Source: Bacillota bacterium
GTDB taxonomy: Bacteria > Bacillota_I > Bacilli_A > Izemoplasmatales > Hujiaoplasmataceae
Reading direction: 5' to 3'
Assembly: GCA_018816905.1 (NCBI GenBank)
Contig: JAHIVB010000003.1
Span: forward strand, 62,001-126,000
DNA: 64,000 bases
This document shows positions 1,538 through 51,337 of the stretch, piece by piece. The position numbers and the translations under genes are program-made. Under the pieces are notes generated by a model. That model worked only from the letters and a program-made list of their open reading frames with translations. It did not search any database and was not told the origin of the DNA. Every line of letters begins with the position of its first letter. Within the stretch, counting starts at the first letter, position 1.

Positions 1538-2575
1538 CTAGTAGATTAACATTTTTTCGATTTCTTTATCATTTAGATTGTATCGAATTCCTTCGATGAT
1601 GTTGAATAAATTTTCTCTTTCAATTTCATTTAGAATCAAAAATGAAGCAAACACTTCAGGTGCATCATTTGAAAAATACATATATCTCTTGGCAAGATTG
1701 TATTTAATCTTTTCTGAATAATATTCGATGTATACATAATCATCTTCGTCTGTAAACTTAGCGAGTTCAGACTTCGACAAATATTTTAATATGTCGTCGG
1801 CATCAAGTAAATTGATGATTTCAGTTAATCGTTTTGAAACAATCCTTGATTTAGAAGTAATCAATGCCGATTTGATTTGTTCGGGCGAAGCTTGATAAAA
1901 CTTCTTTAATCGATAAATTTTAACTATATTAGACAATTCTATTTTTGTTAAAAATATATTATAGAGATTACGTTTCAATTTGCCTGAATAATATTTATCA
2001 ATAACTTGAAAGGCTCTTTCATAATACACATCGTCCAGCGCTCTTTCAATCTCAACATACTTAATTTGATTTGGATCCTTCTCTTCAAAGGGGATAAGAA
2101 CATGATGATACATCGTCCCTTCCAAAGCATTAATTAATCCTGAGAAAGTATCAACTCTGGATAGTTTATCAATATCAAAATTCGCGTGTCTTCTAAAAAA
2201 TATTGGAAACTCAGCAATGGCCAGTGTGATAGATCCAGAAATAACGGATCTGATAGTAGCTAGAATCAAGTCGATTTCTCTCATGACAATGTTCAACTCA
2301 TAAAAGTCTTTGTCTTTGGTCTGCATGAACATGATTAGTTTGATGATGTTCTTGAAGTTATTCTTCTTTATCCACTCTTCTAACTGACCGCGATGGACCG
2401 TATCTTCTTGAATGTCAGAAAGAGTCTCTTTATAATTACTATGGCTTTTTAGATATTTCGCAACTTCAGAGACACTTTTTTTCTTAACCAGTTCTTGATA
2501 ATCCTCAGATTTCAGGCGATTTCCATAGATTGCTTTTGCTTTTGTGACAATGGCATTTCCTGCCTGTGAACTCAT
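1538..2575 (-). CDS. ntpC: V-type ATPase subunit C (AC39 family)
   Basis: 345 residues with the overall pattern of the vATP-synt_AC39 family, the d/C subunit that couples the central stalk to the membrane c-ring in bacterial V/A-ATPases. It is all-helical and has no membrane span. The start (MSSQAGNAIVTKAKAIYGNRL) is typical of the family, and AAGGAG lies nine bases before the ATG. It sits between the stalk subunit at 2597 and the subunit I genes, with short gaps, in one minus-strand operon. The catalytic A and B subunits are not in the window and should lie beyond its left edge. Confidence 0.85.
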   Translation of the reverse strand: MSSQAGNAIVTKAKAIYGNRLKSEDYQELVKKKSVSEVAKYLKSHSNYKETLSDIQEDTVHRGQLEEWIKKNNFKNIIKLIMFMQTKDKDFYELNIVMREIDLILATIRSVISGSITLAIAEFPIFFRRHANFDIDKLSRVDTFSGLINALEGTMYHHVLIPFEEKDPNQIKYVEIERALDDVYYERAFQVIDKYYSGKLKRNLYNIFLTKIELSNIVKIYRLKKFYQASPEQIKSALITSKSRIVSKRLTEIINLLDADDILKYLSKSELAKFTDEDDYVYIEYYSEKIKYNLAKRYMYFSNDAPEVFASFLILNEIERENLFNIIEGIRYNLNDKEIEKMLIY

Positions 2576-2596
2576 GGAATCATCTCCTTAATGTGG

Positions 2597-2908
2597 CTAC
2601 TCTTTTACACAATACTCGTAAATTGAATCAATCCATCCATTTTTATTTTTTAATATGGTTTCTTCCAATTTATGAAATTTTTCATCAAATTCAGCATTGG
2701 CTTCTTGTTTCTTTTTTTCAAGGTCATCAAGTAATTTTTGCTTGGTTGCTTCCACTATTTTTTTGGCATCCGCTTTATACAATGCTTCAATTTCTGATTT
2801 TTTTTGATTAATAAACTCACTGATTTTTGATTTTTCAATTTCAAGAAGTTCTACTTCTGTTCTTGCTTTTTTATCTAGTTCAATAACTTCCTTGATTAAG
2901 TTTTCCAT
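2597..2908 (-). CDS. ntpF: V-type ATPase peripheral stalk subunit G/H
   Basis: 103 residues, highly charged and helical (long Lys/Glu-rich coiled coil from about residue 10 to 90), as expected for the G/H (NtpF) subunit that pairs with subunit E in the peripheral stalk. It is the first gene of the V-ATPase operon. AGAGG precedes the ATG at 2908, and a TATAAT-like -10 lies about 30 bases upstream. Short coiled-coil proteins resemble one another, so the call rests largely on its position before subunits C and I. Confidence 0.75.
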   Translation of the reverse strand: MENLIKEVIELDKKARTEVELLEIEKSKISEFINQKKSEIEALYKADAKKIVEATKQKLLDDLEKKKQEANAEFDEKFHKLEETILKNKNGWIDSIYEYCVKE

Positions 2909-2938
2909 GGAACTTACCTCTTTTCATAATAAATACTA

Positions 2939-2967
2939 ATTATACCTCTAGGATGTTCAAATTGAAA
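2939..2967 (-). promoter_or_regulatory. Probable promoter of the V-ATPase operon
   Basis: A perfect TATAAT (complement of 2939-2944) is preceded, after 17 bases, by TTTCAA (complement of 2962-2967), a weak -35. It ends about 30 bases before the ntpF start codon. Confidence 0.5.
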
Positions 2968-3023
2968 TCAATTCATAGAAATTTTAATAGATAAAGTCTG
3001 TATCGATATCTAAAAAGAAAATA

Positions 3024-3043
3024 AAAAGCTCGCGAGAGCTTTT
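3024..3043 (-). terminator. Intrinsic terminator after the HMA gene
   Basis: Perfect 8-bp stem AAAAGCTC / GAGCTTTT with a GCGA loop, just past the stop codon at 3048, followed on the minus strand by T-rich sequence. Confidence 0.75.
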
Positions 3044-3047
3044 CTTG

Positions 3048-3254
3048 TCATATCTTTACAATTTTTTCAAGATGATACCCTTCTTCTAATAACGCTTGTG
3101 AAATTACCTTGTCGGATACATACCCTTCAAAAGTGGCATAACCGCCTTCAAAAGAGACTTGCACATTAGACACCCCATAGACGTGTTCCAACACATTCTT
3201 TATGTCTTTTGCGCATCCTTCACAATGGATGTTTGAAATAATTGCTTTTTTCAT
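3048..3254 (-). CDS. Small heavy-metal-associated (HMA/CopZ-like) protein
   Basis: 68 residues forming a single ferredoxin-like HMA domain. The metal-binding motif is HCEGC at residues 10-14 (CxxC at 11 and 14), and the fold ends with the usual GY..EKI strand. Such proteins carry Cu(I) or a related soft metal to a P-type ATPase or a sensor; no partner is seen nearby. The reading frame is open further upstream, but the ATG at 3254 has GAAGGGG eight bases before it and begins with the canonical first strand (MKKAIISNI), so this start was chosen. The gene has its own terminator and lies downstream of a terminator that ends the TPR regulator gene. Confidence 0.8.
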   Translation of the reverse strand: MKKAIISNIHCEGCAKDIKNVLEHVYGVSNVQVSFEGGYATFEGYVSDKVISQALLEEGYHLEKIVKI

Positions 3255-3390: not shown

Positions 3391-3422
3391 AAAAAAAATG
3401 GTACCCCTAGGGATGGGGTACC
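3391..3422 (-). terminator. Intrinsic terminator of the TPR regulator gene
   Basis: Stem GGTACCCC (3400-3407) / GGGGTACC (3415-3422) with a 7-base loop, followed on the minus strand by eight consecutive T (complement of 3391-3398). It lies 18 bases past the regulator stop codon and separates this locus from the HMA gene. Confidence 0.85.
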
Positions 3423-3439
3423 GGTCAAGGGAGAAAACC

Positions 3440-4729
3440 TTATAGAATGTATCCTGCAAGGTCTGAATCAGCAACGTTTTTAGAAGTTTGTTTTTTGCCT
3501 TGAACATTCTCATAGATTGTTTTGGCAACTTGTTGAATGTAACTACCGCGAAGACTATATCCTGGCATCTCTTTTTCAGCAATTCGATAGGCTTCGTCAA
3601 GATTATCTTCTTTATTAAAGTAAGATCTAAAGAATAGAATTAAACTCAAATACTCGAATGGATACTTATCTTCTCTATTGAGTAAGACTAATTCTTTTGA
3701 ATACTCGTTCGCTTCGTCTAGTTTGTTTAATTTATATAAACAGTACGTGCGCATGATCGATTCATAGTCGGGCTTTTTAAGGAGCTTCTCAAGAATGATG
3801 TCATAATGTTCTAGTGCATCATTATAATTGTATTCCATTAAGAGACAGTCTGCGTAGTTAAGTTCGGTAGACCTTTTTAACTTTTCAAGATTGCTAAAGG
3901 TAATATAAATTAAGTTTTTTCTCAAGAGTCTTTTCGCTTCGTCAATATTGCCTAGTTTTTTATATAAAGCCGCGATGTTTGTCCGACAGAATATTGCTCT
4001 TTCATAATTCAACTGTTCTTCTAGTTTAGGTAACGCCTTGTTCGCGTATATTAAAGCGTTAATGAAGTCTCCTACCAGTGAATAGCTAAATGAAATATGA
4101 TAATTGACAGTCGGTTCAAGTTCTTGATAGTTAATAGACAAATATGCGGTCAATCTTGCATAATGGATAACATTTTCGCGATTTTTATTAACTGCTGATT
4201 TTATACACATATAATTGTAATACAAGAATCTATGTTCGCTCGACATTTTATCTACAAATCCTTGAAGAAAATCAATGGCCTCATCTTGTTTTTGTCGATG
4301 TAGAGTTGATGAGTAGTTATTTCCAGTAATATAGTAGATTAATTGTGCAAGATAATAAACAATTAATAATATAGAATTTTCATATTCAGGGAGCTTCTCA
4401 ATTATTTTGTTATAGTAGAATTCAGCTTCTGATTCTTGAGCAAAACAAATACAAGTGTAAAAACGACTAAAATTATTATCCAATTCATCAATTGTCAATT
4501 GGCTTGTTTTAGTCTTAATGTCGAGATATGAAGAAATTTTGTCAACCATGTCGTCATAACCTGCAAAGTTCTTTAATTGAGCTCTCCGGTAACTAGACGT
4601 AGCGATTCCTGTTGCTTCATTGATCTCTTTTTGGGTAATCTGTTTTTGTTTTTTTTCGTACTCAATCATGACAAGTTTGTCATAATTTTCTCGAAAGTAA
4701 AAAGAACACGAAAAGTCATAGATAGTCAT
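3440..4729 (-). CDS. HTH plus TPR regulator, candidate peptide receptor (RRNPP-like)
   Basis: 429 residues. Residues about 20-70 look like a Cro/XRE-type helix-turn-helix (TQKEINEATGIATSSYRR at about 32-49, then a helix ending in KISSYLDI). From about residue 75 to 410 it is a continuous series of paired helices with TPR character (for example NIAALYKKLGNIDEAKRLL and ADCLLMEYNYNDALEHYD). HTH plus TPR solenoid is the architecture of RRNPP receptors (Rgg, PlcR, PrgX, AimR), which bind short re-imported peptides. The ATG at 4729 was chosen over 4738 because AGAGG lies nine bases before it but directly abuts the earlier ATG. The gene lies 88 bases downstream of the repeat-peptide precursor on the same strand, which suggests ligand and receptor. 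No recognisable family member could be named, so the receptor role is inference. Confidence 0.7.
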   Translation of the reverse strand: MTIYDFSCSFYFRENYDKLVMIEYEKKQKQITQKEINEATGIATSSYRRAQLKNFAGYDDMVDKISSYLDIKTKTSQLTIDELDNNFSRFYTCICFAQESEAEFYYNKIIEKLPEYENSILLIVYYLAQLIYYITGNNYSSTLHRQKQDEAIDFLQGFVDKMSSEHRFLYYNYMCIKSAVNKNRENVIHYARLTAYLSINYQELEPTVNYHISFSYSLVGDFINALIYANKALPKLEEQLNYERAIFCRTNIAALYKKLGNIDEAKRLLRKNLIYITFSNLEKLKRSTELNYADCLLMEYNYNDALEHYDIILEKLLKKPDYESIMRTYCLYKLNKLDEANEYSKELVLLNREDKYPFEYLSLILFFRSYFNKEDNLDEAYRIAEKEMPGYSLRGSYIQQVAKTIYENVQGKKQTSKNVADSDLAGYIL

Positions 4730-4751
4730 GCAAATCATCCTCTATATATGT

Positions 4752-4815
4752 AATCCTAGAAATTACGTTCTTAAATAAATTCACTAGAGGAAAATAACCT
4801 TAAAAAGTGAATGTA
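4752..4815 (-). terminator. Possible weak hairpins between precursor and regulator genes
   Basis: On the minus strand the gap holds TTCACT...AGTGAA (6-bp arms, 20-base loop) followed by TTTATTT, then a small GTAAT/ATTAC hairpin ahead of the regulator ribosome site. There is no strong GC stem or T-tract. This could be partial termination that makes more precursor than receptor, or it may be chance. Confidence 0.25.
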
Positions 4816-4817
4816 GA

Positions 4818-5264
4818 TTACAGAGTGAACGTTACTCCTAGTTGGTCACCATTGGATAGTGAAGTGTTGCAATACATGAATTCTGGTTCGTCATCATCGA
4901 TACCTGCGCAATACATGAACTCTGGTTCGTCATCGTCGATACCTGCGCAATACATGAATTCTGGTTCGTCGTCATCGATACCATTACTTGCGTACATGAA
5001 CTCTGGTTCATCGTCGTCGATACCTGCACAATACATGAACTCTGGTTCATCGTCGTCGATACCATTACCTGCGTACATGAACTCTGGTTCGTCGTCATCT
5101 ATACCATTTCCTGCGTACATGAATTCTGGTTCGTCGTCATCGATTCCAGCTAAATACATGAATTCTGGTTCATCATCAGTTGCTGCATTAACAAATACCA
5201 TTGATCCAAACAATAAAGCTGCAAAAAATACTACCATTAAAGATTTTCTGAATAAGTTTTTCAT
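4818..5264 (-). CDS. Secreted precursor with eight DDEPEFMY repeats, candidate multi-copy signal peptide
   Basis: 148 residues. Residues 1-27 form a Sec signal peptide (positive MKNLFRK, hydrophobic core, VNA cleavage site). Residues 30-131 are eight copies of DDEPEFMY, seven of them preceded by a third Asp, separated by the spacers LAGI, AGNGI, AGNGI, CAGI, ASNGI, CAGI, CAGI; a 17-residue tail follows. Every core is identical in protein sequence, while the DNA varies at wobble positions. AGGGGG lies eight bases before the ATG. A signal peptide followed by identical short units resembles a polyprotein pheromone precursor, in which proteases would release many copies of one peptide. The gene precedes an HTH-TPR regulator. 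I know of no described family with this repeat. Alternatives are a secreted acidic repeat protein or a modified-peptide substrate, although no maturase is nearby. Confidence 0.8.
   Translation of the reverse strand: MKNLFRKSLMVVFFAALLFGSMVFVNAATDDEPEFMYLAGIDDDEPEFMYAGNGIDDDEPEFMYAGNGIDDDEPEFMYCAGIDDDEPEFMYASNGIDDDEPEFMYCAGIDDDEPEFMYCAGIDDDEPEFMYCNTSLSNGDQLGVTFTL
4872..5177 (-). repeat. Tandem array of eight 39/42-bp coding repeats
   Basis: Eight units encode (D)DDEPEFMY plus a 4- or 5-residue spacer. The roughly 30-base cores differ almost only at third codon positions (GAC/GAT, GAA/GAG, one ATA for Ile). Spacer types of 13-residue units (CAGI) and 14-residue units (AGNGI/ASNGI) are interspersed, as expected from past duplication and slippage. 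Because the unit is a multiple of three, all frames stay open across it. Confidence 0.95.
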
Positions 5265-5323
5265 AAAATTGCCCCCTGAATGTGCTTTAGTATAAAGCGT
5301 TTTGTGCTACATGACTAAAAACT

Positions 5324-5356
5324 GTGTGTTCTATGATTAATATCATATTAACACAC
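5324..5356. promoter_or_regulatory. Nested dyad at the precursor promoter (candidate operator)
   Basis: Outer arms GTGTGTT (5324-5330) and AACACAC (5350-5356) enclose inner arms TATGAT (5332-5337) and ATCATA (5342-5347). The two dyads share almost the same centre (5340 and 5339.5). The site covers the putative -10 and start of transcription of the repeat-precursor gene, so it is a good candidate for binding by the adjacent HTH-TPR regulator. Confidence 0.55.
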
Positions 5357-5373
5357 CATTCAAGGTTTGTAAA
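5345..5373 (-). promoter_or_regulatory. Putative promoter of the repeat-precursor gene
   Basis: TTTACA (complement of 5368-5373), a 17-base spacer and TAATAT (complement of 5345-5350). It predicts a transcript starting near 5338 with a leader of about 74 bases. The -10 lies inside the nested dyad. Confidence 0.5.
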
Positions 5374-5510
5374 TATTCTCATTCGATAATATTTTATAAA
5401 TAGATTATAACATATTCTCACATATTGTCGATACAAATATTCTAAAAAAAGAACATTTTAGTTTTTTGACCGATTTGCGATGCTCTAAAAACCAGTATAA
5501 TAAAATGGTT

Positions 5511-7103: not shown

Positions 7104-8675
7104 TTAGTTTTGTTTGATTGTGTCTGCAATCGTCACAGTAACCTGGTTTTTTCCATTTTTCTTCGATTGATATAACGCTTCATCTGCTAGTTGAATACAT
7201 TGAGACACTGTATGCTCACAACCCGGAGTATGAACGGATGCACCTACACTGATTTTAATCTTAGTTTGAAAATGATCACCAACAAACAATGAGCTTTCGA
7301 TTTTTTGCCGAATCAATTCTCCCAAAGCCAAAGAACTAGTTTTGTCTCCGGATCTTAAAAGGATGGTAAACTCTTCTCCGCCAAATCGAGCAAAAACTCC
7401 CTCTTTAGGAATCATTTCACTGACTAATCTTGAAAATTCTTGTAATACATAATCGCCAGCAACATGGCCATAATTATCATTTACATACTTAAAATCATCA
7501 ATATCAATCATAATAATAGAATAACTCAAATCTTTGTGTGTTTTATTTTCTAGGTATAAATTCAACTGTTCTAGAAATGCTCTTCGATTCAATATCTTCG
7601 TTAAAACATCGTGTGTTGCGTCGTAGCGAAGGTTTTCTAATCTTTCCATGTACGATGTCATATCGTTAAGTTTAATCAAATATCCTGAATTTTTGCCTTC
7701 GGTCTTTCCTATAAGAACGGCTTCAACAATAAAATGTTTGCCCTTATATTTGTAACTATATGGTAAATCGTTTAAAACTGCATCGGTTAATTCCGAATCT
7801 TTAAAAACTGTATTAATCGACTCGTGATAAAACCCGTTCTCACTACTGGAAAAGAAGGATTCTGCAGATTGATTCCAATCAACGATATCGAATTTATCGT
7901 CCACTGCAAAAATCGGATCCGTAGATAGTTCGAATGAAGCTAAGTAAGCAGAAGGTTTTAAGTCGATAATTTCATACTTCATGATGCTATACAAGGTAAC
8001 AAATCCAGTAATAACAATAATAAAGAAAGCCGTGTCCAACCCTGTTGATACTGGAGAGAATAGTGTAAATATGATAGCCACAATTCCTAACAAACTAGAT
8101 AACCCTAAAGCAAGGGATTGCTTCTTCCGAATTCCGGAGGTTTGAAAAAATATTCTTATATATACATAGAAAACGAAACTGGTCAAAAACAGATTACTTA
8201 TTGAGTTTAAATAATAGAAAACCCCTTTTTCTAAATACAATACAGGAAAAGAAACATTTCCCATCATCCATGACCAATCGATTGATTCGTTCGTGTAATA
8301 AAGATTTACAGGAGTAAAAAATGAAAGTTCAGCTGTTATAAACACCATAATCGGTATTATCAATAAAGGAAAAGTCTTTTTTAAGTTAGGTACAAAATGA
8401 TGATTTTGGAATTTTTTAGCGATATATAGCCAAGTTATTGCGAAGAATGGTAAGGCGAGATATTGAAAATGATTTGCAAACATTTTCAATTCCAAAGTTG
8501 AAAATACGCATTCAAACAAATAGCCTAATGCATATATGAATTCCAAAACAAAAAGAAAACCGATTTGCCATATTCCTTTTGATTTTCTAACGTTCATAAA
8601 AACCAGTAATGAAATCAATAAAGAAATAACAGCAATGGTGAGGGTTATGCCAACAAAAATATAATCATATCTCAT
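7104..8675 (-). CDS. Membrane-bound diguanylate cyclase (7TM-like sensor, PAS, GGDEF)
   Basis: 523 residues. Residues 1-235 hold seven or eight hydrophobic helices, like the N-terminal 7TM region of many histidine kinases. A PAS-like domain spans about 240-340, and a GGDEF domain spans about 345-520 with an intact active site GGEEF at 432-436 (ARFGGEEFTILL). It should make cyclic di-GMP from two GTP. No RxxD inhibitory site is seen five residues before the active site. A paralog with the same start (MRYD) and layout lies at 57222. The gene is 19 bases upstream of the acyltransferase and probably co-transcribed with it. Confidence 0.85.
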   Translation of the reverse strand: MRYDYIFVGITLTIAVISLLISLLVFMNVRKSKGIWQIGFLFVLEFIYALGYLFECVFSTLELKMFANHFQYLALPFFAITWLYIAKKFQNHHFVPNLKKTFPLLIIPIMVFITAELSFFTPVNLYYTNESIDWSWMMGNVSFPVLYLEKGVFYYLNSISNLFLTSFVFYVYIRIFFQTSGIRKKQSLALGLSSLLGIVAIIFTLFSPVSTGLDTAFFIIVITGFVTLYSIMKYEIIDLKPSAYLASFELSTDPIFAVDDKFDIVDWNQSAESFFSSSENGFYHESINTVFKDSELTDAVLNDLPYSYKYKGKHFIVEAVLIGKTEGKNSGYLIKLNDMTSYMERLENLRYDATHDVLTKILNRRAFLEQLNLYLENKTHKDLSYSIIMIDIDDFKYVNDNYGHVAGDYVLQEFSRLVSEMIPKEGVFARFGGEEFTILLRSGDKTSSLALGELIRQKIESSLFVGDHFQTKIKISVGASVHTPGCEHTVSQCIQLADEALYQSKKNGKNQVTVTIADTIKQN

Positions 8676-25510: not shown

Positions 25511-25776
25511 AATATAAAAAAGCGTTGAGAAAGAGAAGTAATTCAATTTCGATGGAAAAGCGAATCTAGGATGGTGCAAGCTAGAGACCAAAGATTGAAT
25601 GAATAACACTTTTTAGCTACTTATCGAAAGAGAAATCAAGTAGGTTAAGTCGGGGAGCATGCCGTTATCAATTGCGACTTTTCATCGGAAAGTAAAGCAG
25701 GCTTTTTTTAAAGCAATTTGGGTGGTACCGCGGATCAAGTGATTCGTCCCTTTCTAGGGATGAATCACTTTTTTTA
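25511..25776 (+). ncRNA. T-box leader, Asn specifier, upstream of asparagine synthase
   Basis: The leader shows the full T-box layout. Stem I begins with GAGAAAGAGAAGTAA and has the apical motif GGTGCAAGC (25573-25581). The 3' side of the specifier loop reads GAATAACAC with the Asn codon AAC at 25605-25607, followed by the conserved A. The T-box sequence AATTTGGGTGGTACCGCGG is at 25715-25733. It is followed by a terminator hairpin (25737-25770, GTGATTC...GAATCAC) and T-run. Uncharged tRNA-Asn should bind and prevent termination, raising asparagine synthase expression when asparagine is scarce. Confidence 0.95.
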
Positions 25777-51137: not shown

Positions 51138-51171
51138 AAAAAAAAGCCATTATATATGAAATATAACAGCT
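51138..51171 (-). terminator. Terminator of the lysine riboswitch expression platform
   Basis: 11-bp stem AGCTGTTATAT / ATATAATGGCT (two G-T pairs, complement of 51145-51171) with a run of seven T. Its 5' arm contains the bases that follow GGAGAG at the 3' end of the lysine aptamer, so the terminator and the closing stem of the aptamer compete. Confidence 0.7.
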
Positions 51172-51337
51172 CTCCATCTCAAATGGCAGTAATTGAGCAT
51201 TGACTCAAGTACCAAGCAGATGACTATGAACGAATCATCTCTTTCGGCAAAATATTCCTTTTTTTATCGCATCTGAGGTTCATCTCATTATCATCGATAA
51301 AATACCAATATTTTGCGCCTCTGTGTGTATCAAGTTA
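51168..51337 (-). ncRNA. Lysine riboswitch (L-box) upstream of the lysine fermentation operon
   Basis: On the minus strand the leader contains the hallmark L-box segments in order: ACAGAGGCGC near the 5' end, GAGATGAACCTC, TGCCGAAAGAGATG, TCATCTGCTTGG, and the 3' closing GATGGAGAGCT. Spacing and arrangement fit the five-helix lysine aptamer. A competing terminator follows. The P1 helix (ACAG with CTGT) uses the same 3' bases as the terminator 5' arm, which suggests that lysine binding switches the operon on. That suits a degradation pathway but differs from the common OFF switches of lysine synthesis. Confidence 0.85.

Follow-up and report, generated by a model that had tools for sequence, protein, structure and literature searches.

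According to surveys, RRNPP peptide signalling occurs in Firmicutes and in the mobile elements of these bacteria. In the NprR-NprX and Rap-Phr systems of Bacillus, a Sec-type propeptide gene adjoins the gene of a TPR receptor of 350-430 aa. The Rgg/ComR systems of Streptococcus use an HTH-TPR receptor and a re-imported short peptide, and their pheromones are single short peptides exported by PptAB, with no duplicates found (PMC9765709). Propeptides carrying several pheromone copies, released by extracellular proteases, have been described as Phr105 and Phr3T (PMC11343458) and for NprR, AimR and PlcR (PMC9765709). They are the exception, with two copies in the studied cases and up to six (PMC9765709) or, in Phr, eight (PMC11343458), and their maturation has been termed a mystery (PMC9765709). 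The strict definition of RRNPP_detector covers propeptides of 10-100 aa (PMC10075063). We found no report of RRNPP systems in Izemoplasmatales, Acholeplasmatales or Mollicutes in the open-access literature, which is not proof of absence; the Izemoplasmatales and Acholeplasmatales groups have lost sporulation and, largely, peptidoglycan (PMC10868615).

We analysed a 64,000-nucleotide stretch of Izemoplasmatales DNA (the window), in which two adjacent genes on the minus strand encode a repeat-bearing secreted precursor and an HTH-TPR protein (Table 1). Very probably the pair is a two-gene quorum-sensing cassette of the RRNPP type in which a polyprotein supplies the pheromone. The receptor lineage, the acidic type of pheromone, the regular long spacer arrays and the host group are new, while the RRNPP kind of system and multi-copy propeptides are already known. 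The initial annotation of this DNA had held one pheromone per precursor to be usual and had called the precursor-first order unusual; copy numbers of up to six (PMC9765709) and eight (PMC11343458) contradict the former, and propeptide genes upstream as well as downstream of RRNPP receptors (PMC9765709) the latter.

NprR-NprX and Rap-Phr resemble the present pair in the features given above and provide the best receptor fold match, but their sequence likeness to the window receptor is barely detectable (NprR, E 0.0015). Here, by contrast, the precursor is 148 aa long, lies upstream and carries eight spaced copies of an acidic pheromone, and the host group is wall-less and non-sporulating (PMC10868615). 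Unlike the known multi-copy propeptides, those of the close relatives all hold 5-9 spacer-separated copies where they are intact. The yeast alpha-factor precursor is also secreted with several spaced pheromone copies. That likeness is an analogy only, since there is no homology and yeast uses eukaryotic processing and a cell-surface receptor.

Table 1. Positions of the features (window coordinates, except the last five rows, which give coordinates within other loci)
Feature	Position	Strand	Remarks
Terminator-like stem-loop	3400..3422	-	intrinsic, then T run; after receptor gene
HTH-TPR receptor/regulator	3440..4729	-	429 aa; HTH about residues 25-74, TPR helices 77-409
Gap, precursor stop to receptor start	4730..4817	-	without terminator-like site
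Secreted polyprotein precursor	4818..5264	-	148 aa; Sec-type signal 1-27, eight DDEPEFMY units, 17-residue tail
Promoter-like site P2, TTTACA-17-TAATAT	5345..5373	-	of precursor; conserved in relatives
Box B, degenerate box A copy over P2 -35	5372..5389	-	candidate operator (putative function)
Promoter-like site P1, TCGACA-16-TATAAT	5404..5431	-	extended -10; 11/12; conserved in relatives
Box A, TTCT-N7-GAATATT	5436..5453	-	just upstream of P1; candidate operator (putative function)
~90-aa gene, locus L081	1468-1740
~90-aa gene, locus L083	3158-3445
~90-aa gene, locus L043	2675-2944
~90-aa gene, locus L040	4578-4856
~90-aa gene, locus L067 (and others)	2926-3195

The repeat precursor and the receptor

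The sequence confirmed the annotated precursor, with 148 residues, a Sec-type signal and eight identical DDEPEFMY units, and likewise the 429-residue HTH-TPR ORF directly downstream on the same strand. The precursor N-terminus (residues 1-27), judged by eye, was of the Sec type found on RRNPP propeptides, with K/R followed by a hydrophobic helix (2-27). The array of exact units spanned residues 30-131, with spacers of 5-6 residues (LAGID, AGNGID, CAGID or ASNGID). Among the 62 non-overlapping ORFs of the window, 7-mers occurring at least three times were found only in the precursor ORF and its own antisense shadow. A pattern search over the whole 1.67-Mb assembly confined the DDEPEFMY unit to the array locus, and a protein search found the precursor once in the genome.

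At the DNA level all eight units were distinct, and their four variable columns were all third codon positions and all synonymous. Synonymous sites make up 3/24 of a unit, which gave P ~2e-4 for a minimum of four events being all synonymous; this result refers to the window's array only, with every unit in register taken. A first table over all arrays was left unused, because its units had been picked by exact amino-acid pattern and zero non-synonymous differences were therefore automatic. Unlike the units, the spacers varied in both sequence and length. Since the DNA copies differ only synonymously while the spacers vary, the array points to selection on the peptide rather than recent duplication. 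An antisense ORF of 162 codons with YMNSGSSSSIPA units overlies the repeats (4807-5295, plus strand); it was rejected as a gene, since it only mirrors the codons used in the precursor.

The AlphaFold model of the precursor, built on an alignment of the precursors of three relatives, showed a helix for the signal peptide (2-27), past which nothing was modelled with confidence (mean pLDDT 42, 36-39 over the repeats, pTM 0.20), and the chain is predicted to be disordered past the signal peptide. No Pfam or NCBIfam family matched the precursor above cut-off. These results bear on the reading of the gene product as an acidic repeat protein that is secreted, functions uncleaved (adhesin-like, ion-binding or matrix) and is merely controlled by the adjoining HTH-TPR regulator. 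Surface proteins are commonly repeat-bearing and acidic, and the c-di-GMP genes near this and related loci would fit attachment. However, the precursor is without anchor or folded domain, neither AlphaFold nor Pfam nor NCBIfam gave any sign of a folded surface protein, and a core kept identical while spacers are free and copy number runs from 5 to 9 argues against an intact structural protein, as do single-core counterparts described below, which at 49-61 aa with a signal peptide are hardly structural. The intact structural surface protein, which the annotation had named as what would overturn its reading, thus failed against the model, and we judge it very unlikely.

Several units of the window precursor are directly followed by a cysteine (YC). 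Some modified ribosomal peptides derive from precursors with several cores, and this cysteine would fit such a product, that is, a bacteriocin or modified multi-core peptide with a peptide-sensing regulator. Yet the cysteine is missing after the units of two relatives (G013 and G004), and the gene lists of the window and the relatives showed neither a modification enzyme nor a dedicated peptidase, a transporter or an immunity gene beside the pair, the conserved neighbours being acyltransferase-like, SemiSWEET-like, PHP and HMA genes instead. A ribosomal peptide natural product is therefore highly improbable.

The receptor gene starts 79-88 nt past the end of the precursor, depending on the start codon; the start at 4729 was favoured because the alternative at 4738 (432 residues) lies too near the ribosome-binding site. 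The length of 429 aa falls inside the 250-500 aa range of RRNPP receptors with tetratricopeptide repeats, and TPR_12 matched above the Pfam cut-off (8e-8). For the HTH, which RRNPP receptors other than Rap carry at the N-terminus, the window receptor itself had no Pfam match, but HTH_3 matched a homologue of 30% identity (G180; 5.7e-6, 26.7 bits vs a cut-off of 23) and aligned to the same region of the window receptor, and R48, R49, A50 and Q51 were invariant in the HTH of the close relatives. The AlphaFold model, resting on a shallow alignment of seven sequences, had a pLDDT of 85.5 and a pTM of 0.76, with helices at 9-68 followed by an all-helical TPR-like superhelix up to 409.

When the model was compared with 350,542 PDB chains by Foldseek, the best 20 matches were all RRNPP receptors (NprR, Rap), several of them pheromone-bound, with E from 1.7e-5 to 6e-4 and TM of 0.43-0.56 by query length. 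NprR-NprX came first (E 1.7e-5, probability 1.0), followed by RapI, RapF, RapJ and Rap-Phi3T. A profile of the receptor family matched NprR as the sole hit among all PDB sequences (E 0.0015), while a single-sequence search against PDB gave chance TPR matches only. The receptor was not placed in the Rgg/ComR subfamily, as its profile matched only NprR. A conserved Asn lies in the RNPP peptide groove (Asn227 in RapF; PMC3601957). In the NprR profile alignment His211 aligned with the Asn in the YNIALAY helix of NprR, and Asn251 and Asn291 were invariant in adjoining TPRs of the close relatives, the placement of the shared RNPP Asn being uncertain. Taken from sequence and model, these results support a lineage related to RRNPP pheromone receptors, with HTH-TPR architecture.

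A variant of the cassette reading, not exclusive of it, is a receptor that acts on a protein, as Rap does, instead of or besides DNA. Rap proteins are among its best fold neighbours, and NprR itself works in both modes (PMC4970707), but the HTH_3 of the homologue, the invariant HTH residues and the conserved promoter boxes favour DNA, and we regard protein action as unlikely.

The pair in relatives and its single-copy counterparts

Of 61 genomes examined, six others, all of the same family, contained the receptor at 50-67% identity; the named records among them are MAGs labelled Candidatus Izemoplasmatales, Acholeplasmatales (UBA12489), Tenericutes HGW-Tenericutes-1 and Bacillales UBA5603. A same-strand repeat precursor lay upstream of the receptor in four of the five relatives with upstream sequence (G013, G004, G011, G003), so the pair does occur together, which the annotation had proposed as its test. 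The relatives' arrays had 5-9 copies of DDPEPE[FI]xY, numbers that may be wrong where contig ends cut an array or repeats had to be assembled, most genomes being fragmentary MAGs. G013 had nine units (eight DDPEPEFAY and one DAEPEFAY), G004 six DDPEPEIVY and G011 five DDPEPEFVY; in G003 the precursor repeats stood at two broken contig ends, and in G002 the receptor locus was cut at a contig end. The core was thus conserved among the relatives, with free spacers. The same-genus genome G001 had a precursor with DDDEPEFMY units at a contig end (L042 1-405); it also carried a DDDEPELMY variant and, near the end, two in-frame TAA codons, which reflect decay or an assembly error.

The gene order was kept as acyltransferase-like, SemiSWEET-like, precursor, receptor, PHP and HMA, with PHP absent in the window. 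In G018 (L021 / L050) the receptor was intact, the precursor absent and the upstream SemiSWEET-like gene broken, possibly an eavesdropper or a decaying locus; a receptor retained without its precursor speaks against the polyprotein pheromone.

A class-wide profile search found three further receptor homologues (30, 26 and 30% identity), all in family f18. Upstream of each, on the same strand, was a secreted-type propeptide of 49-61 aa with one PD[DE]RPI[GS]YI core (PDDRPISYI, PDDRPIGYI and PDERPIGYI). These cores and the array units have the common shape D-[DE]-x-P-x-x-(x)-Y, and with this shape shared, the array looks like the amplification of an ordinary core that also exists as a single-copy propeptide. 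In our view nothing supports the pheromone reading more strongly than these counterparts, and the polyprotein proposed in the initial annotation is further supported by the co-occurrence, the disordered precursor and the RRNPP fold matches of the receptor. The f18 propeptides pass the length limit of RRNPP_detector, while the 148-aa precursor fails it, so such surveys would miss the array.

Expression, processing and the proposed circuit

The annotation had given the pair its own promoter and a strong terminator. A terminator-like stem was indeed present, and the promoter sites were supported by conservation but not by the scan, in which promoter-like sites were no more numerous than in shuffled sequence; conservation in relatives is therefore the better promoter evidence. 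As the gap between the genes has no terminator-like site, precursor and receptor probably form one transcript. Box A was kept strictly and at equal spacing in 6/6 aligned genomes, across which box B was also conserved. The dyad at 5324-5356, put forward earlier as the receptor's site, was found only in the same genus, boxes A and B being conserved instead, and a palindrome search found no palindromic operator in the window. The two boxes would be the natural candidates for the receptor operator.

We infer secretion, maturation, re-import, peptide binding, DNA target and direction of regulation as follows. The precursor would be exported by Sec, and extracellular proteases would cut the disordered chain at the spacers, which would release up to eight acidic peptides, either DDEPEFMY itself or some part of DDDEPEFMY. 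Once outside, this peptide would build up, be taken back in by an oligopeptide permease and bind the HTH-TPR protein at its TPR superhelix. The peptide-bound receptor may then alter its action at the precursor promoter, at boxes A/B, and perhaps elsewhere.

The genome encodes an oligopeptide permease: G000:C2 holds an oppBCDFA-like operon that is complete, and there is another opp-like set besides. The last unit of the window precursor is not C-terminal, being followed by the tail, so maturation needs cleavage on both sides. In contrast to multi-copy Phr, this precursor has a non-pheromone tail and an unrelated peptide sequence, and a search of the genome (assembly 86% complete) gave no S8 (subtilisin-type) protease. 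Subtilisin-type maturation, as by Bacillus WprA, was rejected for lack of such a protease, and processing would have to take another route than that of Phr105, which uses WprA (PMC11343458). The need for cuts on both sides, with no subtilisin-type protease found, also counts against the polyprotein pheromone. An S41-like peptidase fragment, recognised by eye at L142 115-531 (G000:C2:100500-108500), lies upstream of the gene of an 883-aa OppA-like lipoprotein and of permease genes and is a candidate peptide-processing player.

A parallel Rgg/ComR-like family

Weak precursor matches led to a second HTH-TPR family of ~306 aa (alignment A3, then A6), present in 52/90 genomes of the order and 61/395 sampled genomes of the class. 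The A6 profile matched ComR and Rgg-type regulators in PDB, to which the family is nearest by sequence. At 52 of 59 testable non-redundant loci a secreted small ORF was divergent from the receptor start; signals were called by a simple hydrophobicity rule, which at L059 and L065 took the adjoining 90-aa gene for the propeptide, and at a few of the remaining loci (e.g. L079, L084, L109, L126) the ORF has probably arisen by chance. The mature part was net negative at 47 of the 59 loci, whereas among 73 other large ORFs at A6 loci, used as controls, 23 had an adjacent secreted ORF and 6 an acidic one. The acidic ligand, which the annotation had considered unusual, is thus no one-species quirk but the rule across a large set of related systems.

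The A6 precursors typically had a DFDDxxxPExx core, present once to at least 12 times. Their arrays ran from 4 to 12 or more units (for example nine DFDDRDEPEFINI in L066 and ten DFDDEDFPEFINL in L073) and mostly finished exactly on a unit; L078 instead had three separate one-core propeptide genes. Unlike in Rgg/ComR systems, the precursors are of the Sec type and carry up to 12 or more units. The window's genome contains a system of this kind at L081 (G000:C8:14500-19500), with a propeptide at 1755-1904 (minus strand) holding one core (...VQLGFDDDDIPEFINF) and terminating in LGFDDDDIPEFINF, and an Rgg/ComR-like HTH-TPR gene at 1927-2910 (plus strand). Homology of the window receptor family and A6 was not established (hhalign probability 1% and 10%; A1 vs A6 10%), so A6 serves as a parallel and not as proof, and the likeness of the acidic PE[FYL] core means either old common descent or convergence. 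A viral or plasmid origin was rejected, as neither receptor family occurred in viral contigs and the window receptor was absent from phages and plasmids.

A GGDEF and/or EAL protein was encoded directly after the A6 receptor at 7/7 loci (L040, L043, L054, L061, L066, L069, L072), and in the window a 7TM-GGDEF gene (7107-8675) lies three genes upstream of the precursor, which is no more than suggestive of c-di-GMP as the output of these systems. Much more tentatively, and with the odds somewhat against it, wall-less Bacilli might share a class-wide acidic-pheromone language with a D-D-x-P-E-[FYL] core, read by two distantly related HTH-TPR families (NprR-like and Rgg/ComR-like), in which tandem copies (1 to at least 12) would set the dose and c-di-GMP turnover would be the output. 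If the pheromone reading is right, these bacteria would have extensive peptide communication, overlooked partly because the precursors exceed search length limits. The natural copy series, with and without spacers, allows maturation tests, and an acidic unit so short and so nearly constant lends itself to easy synthesis and assays.

Two minor observations are added. In many A6 loci the propeptide is followed by a ~90-aa gene (QEFxIELxGIIGTIxTYTRNPFxVGYTKELKKA; Table 1), for which no Pfam family scored above cut-off. Elsewhere in the window, Rfam identified a T-box leader at 25516-25754 (plus strand) and a lysine riboswitch at 51159-51331 (minus strand).
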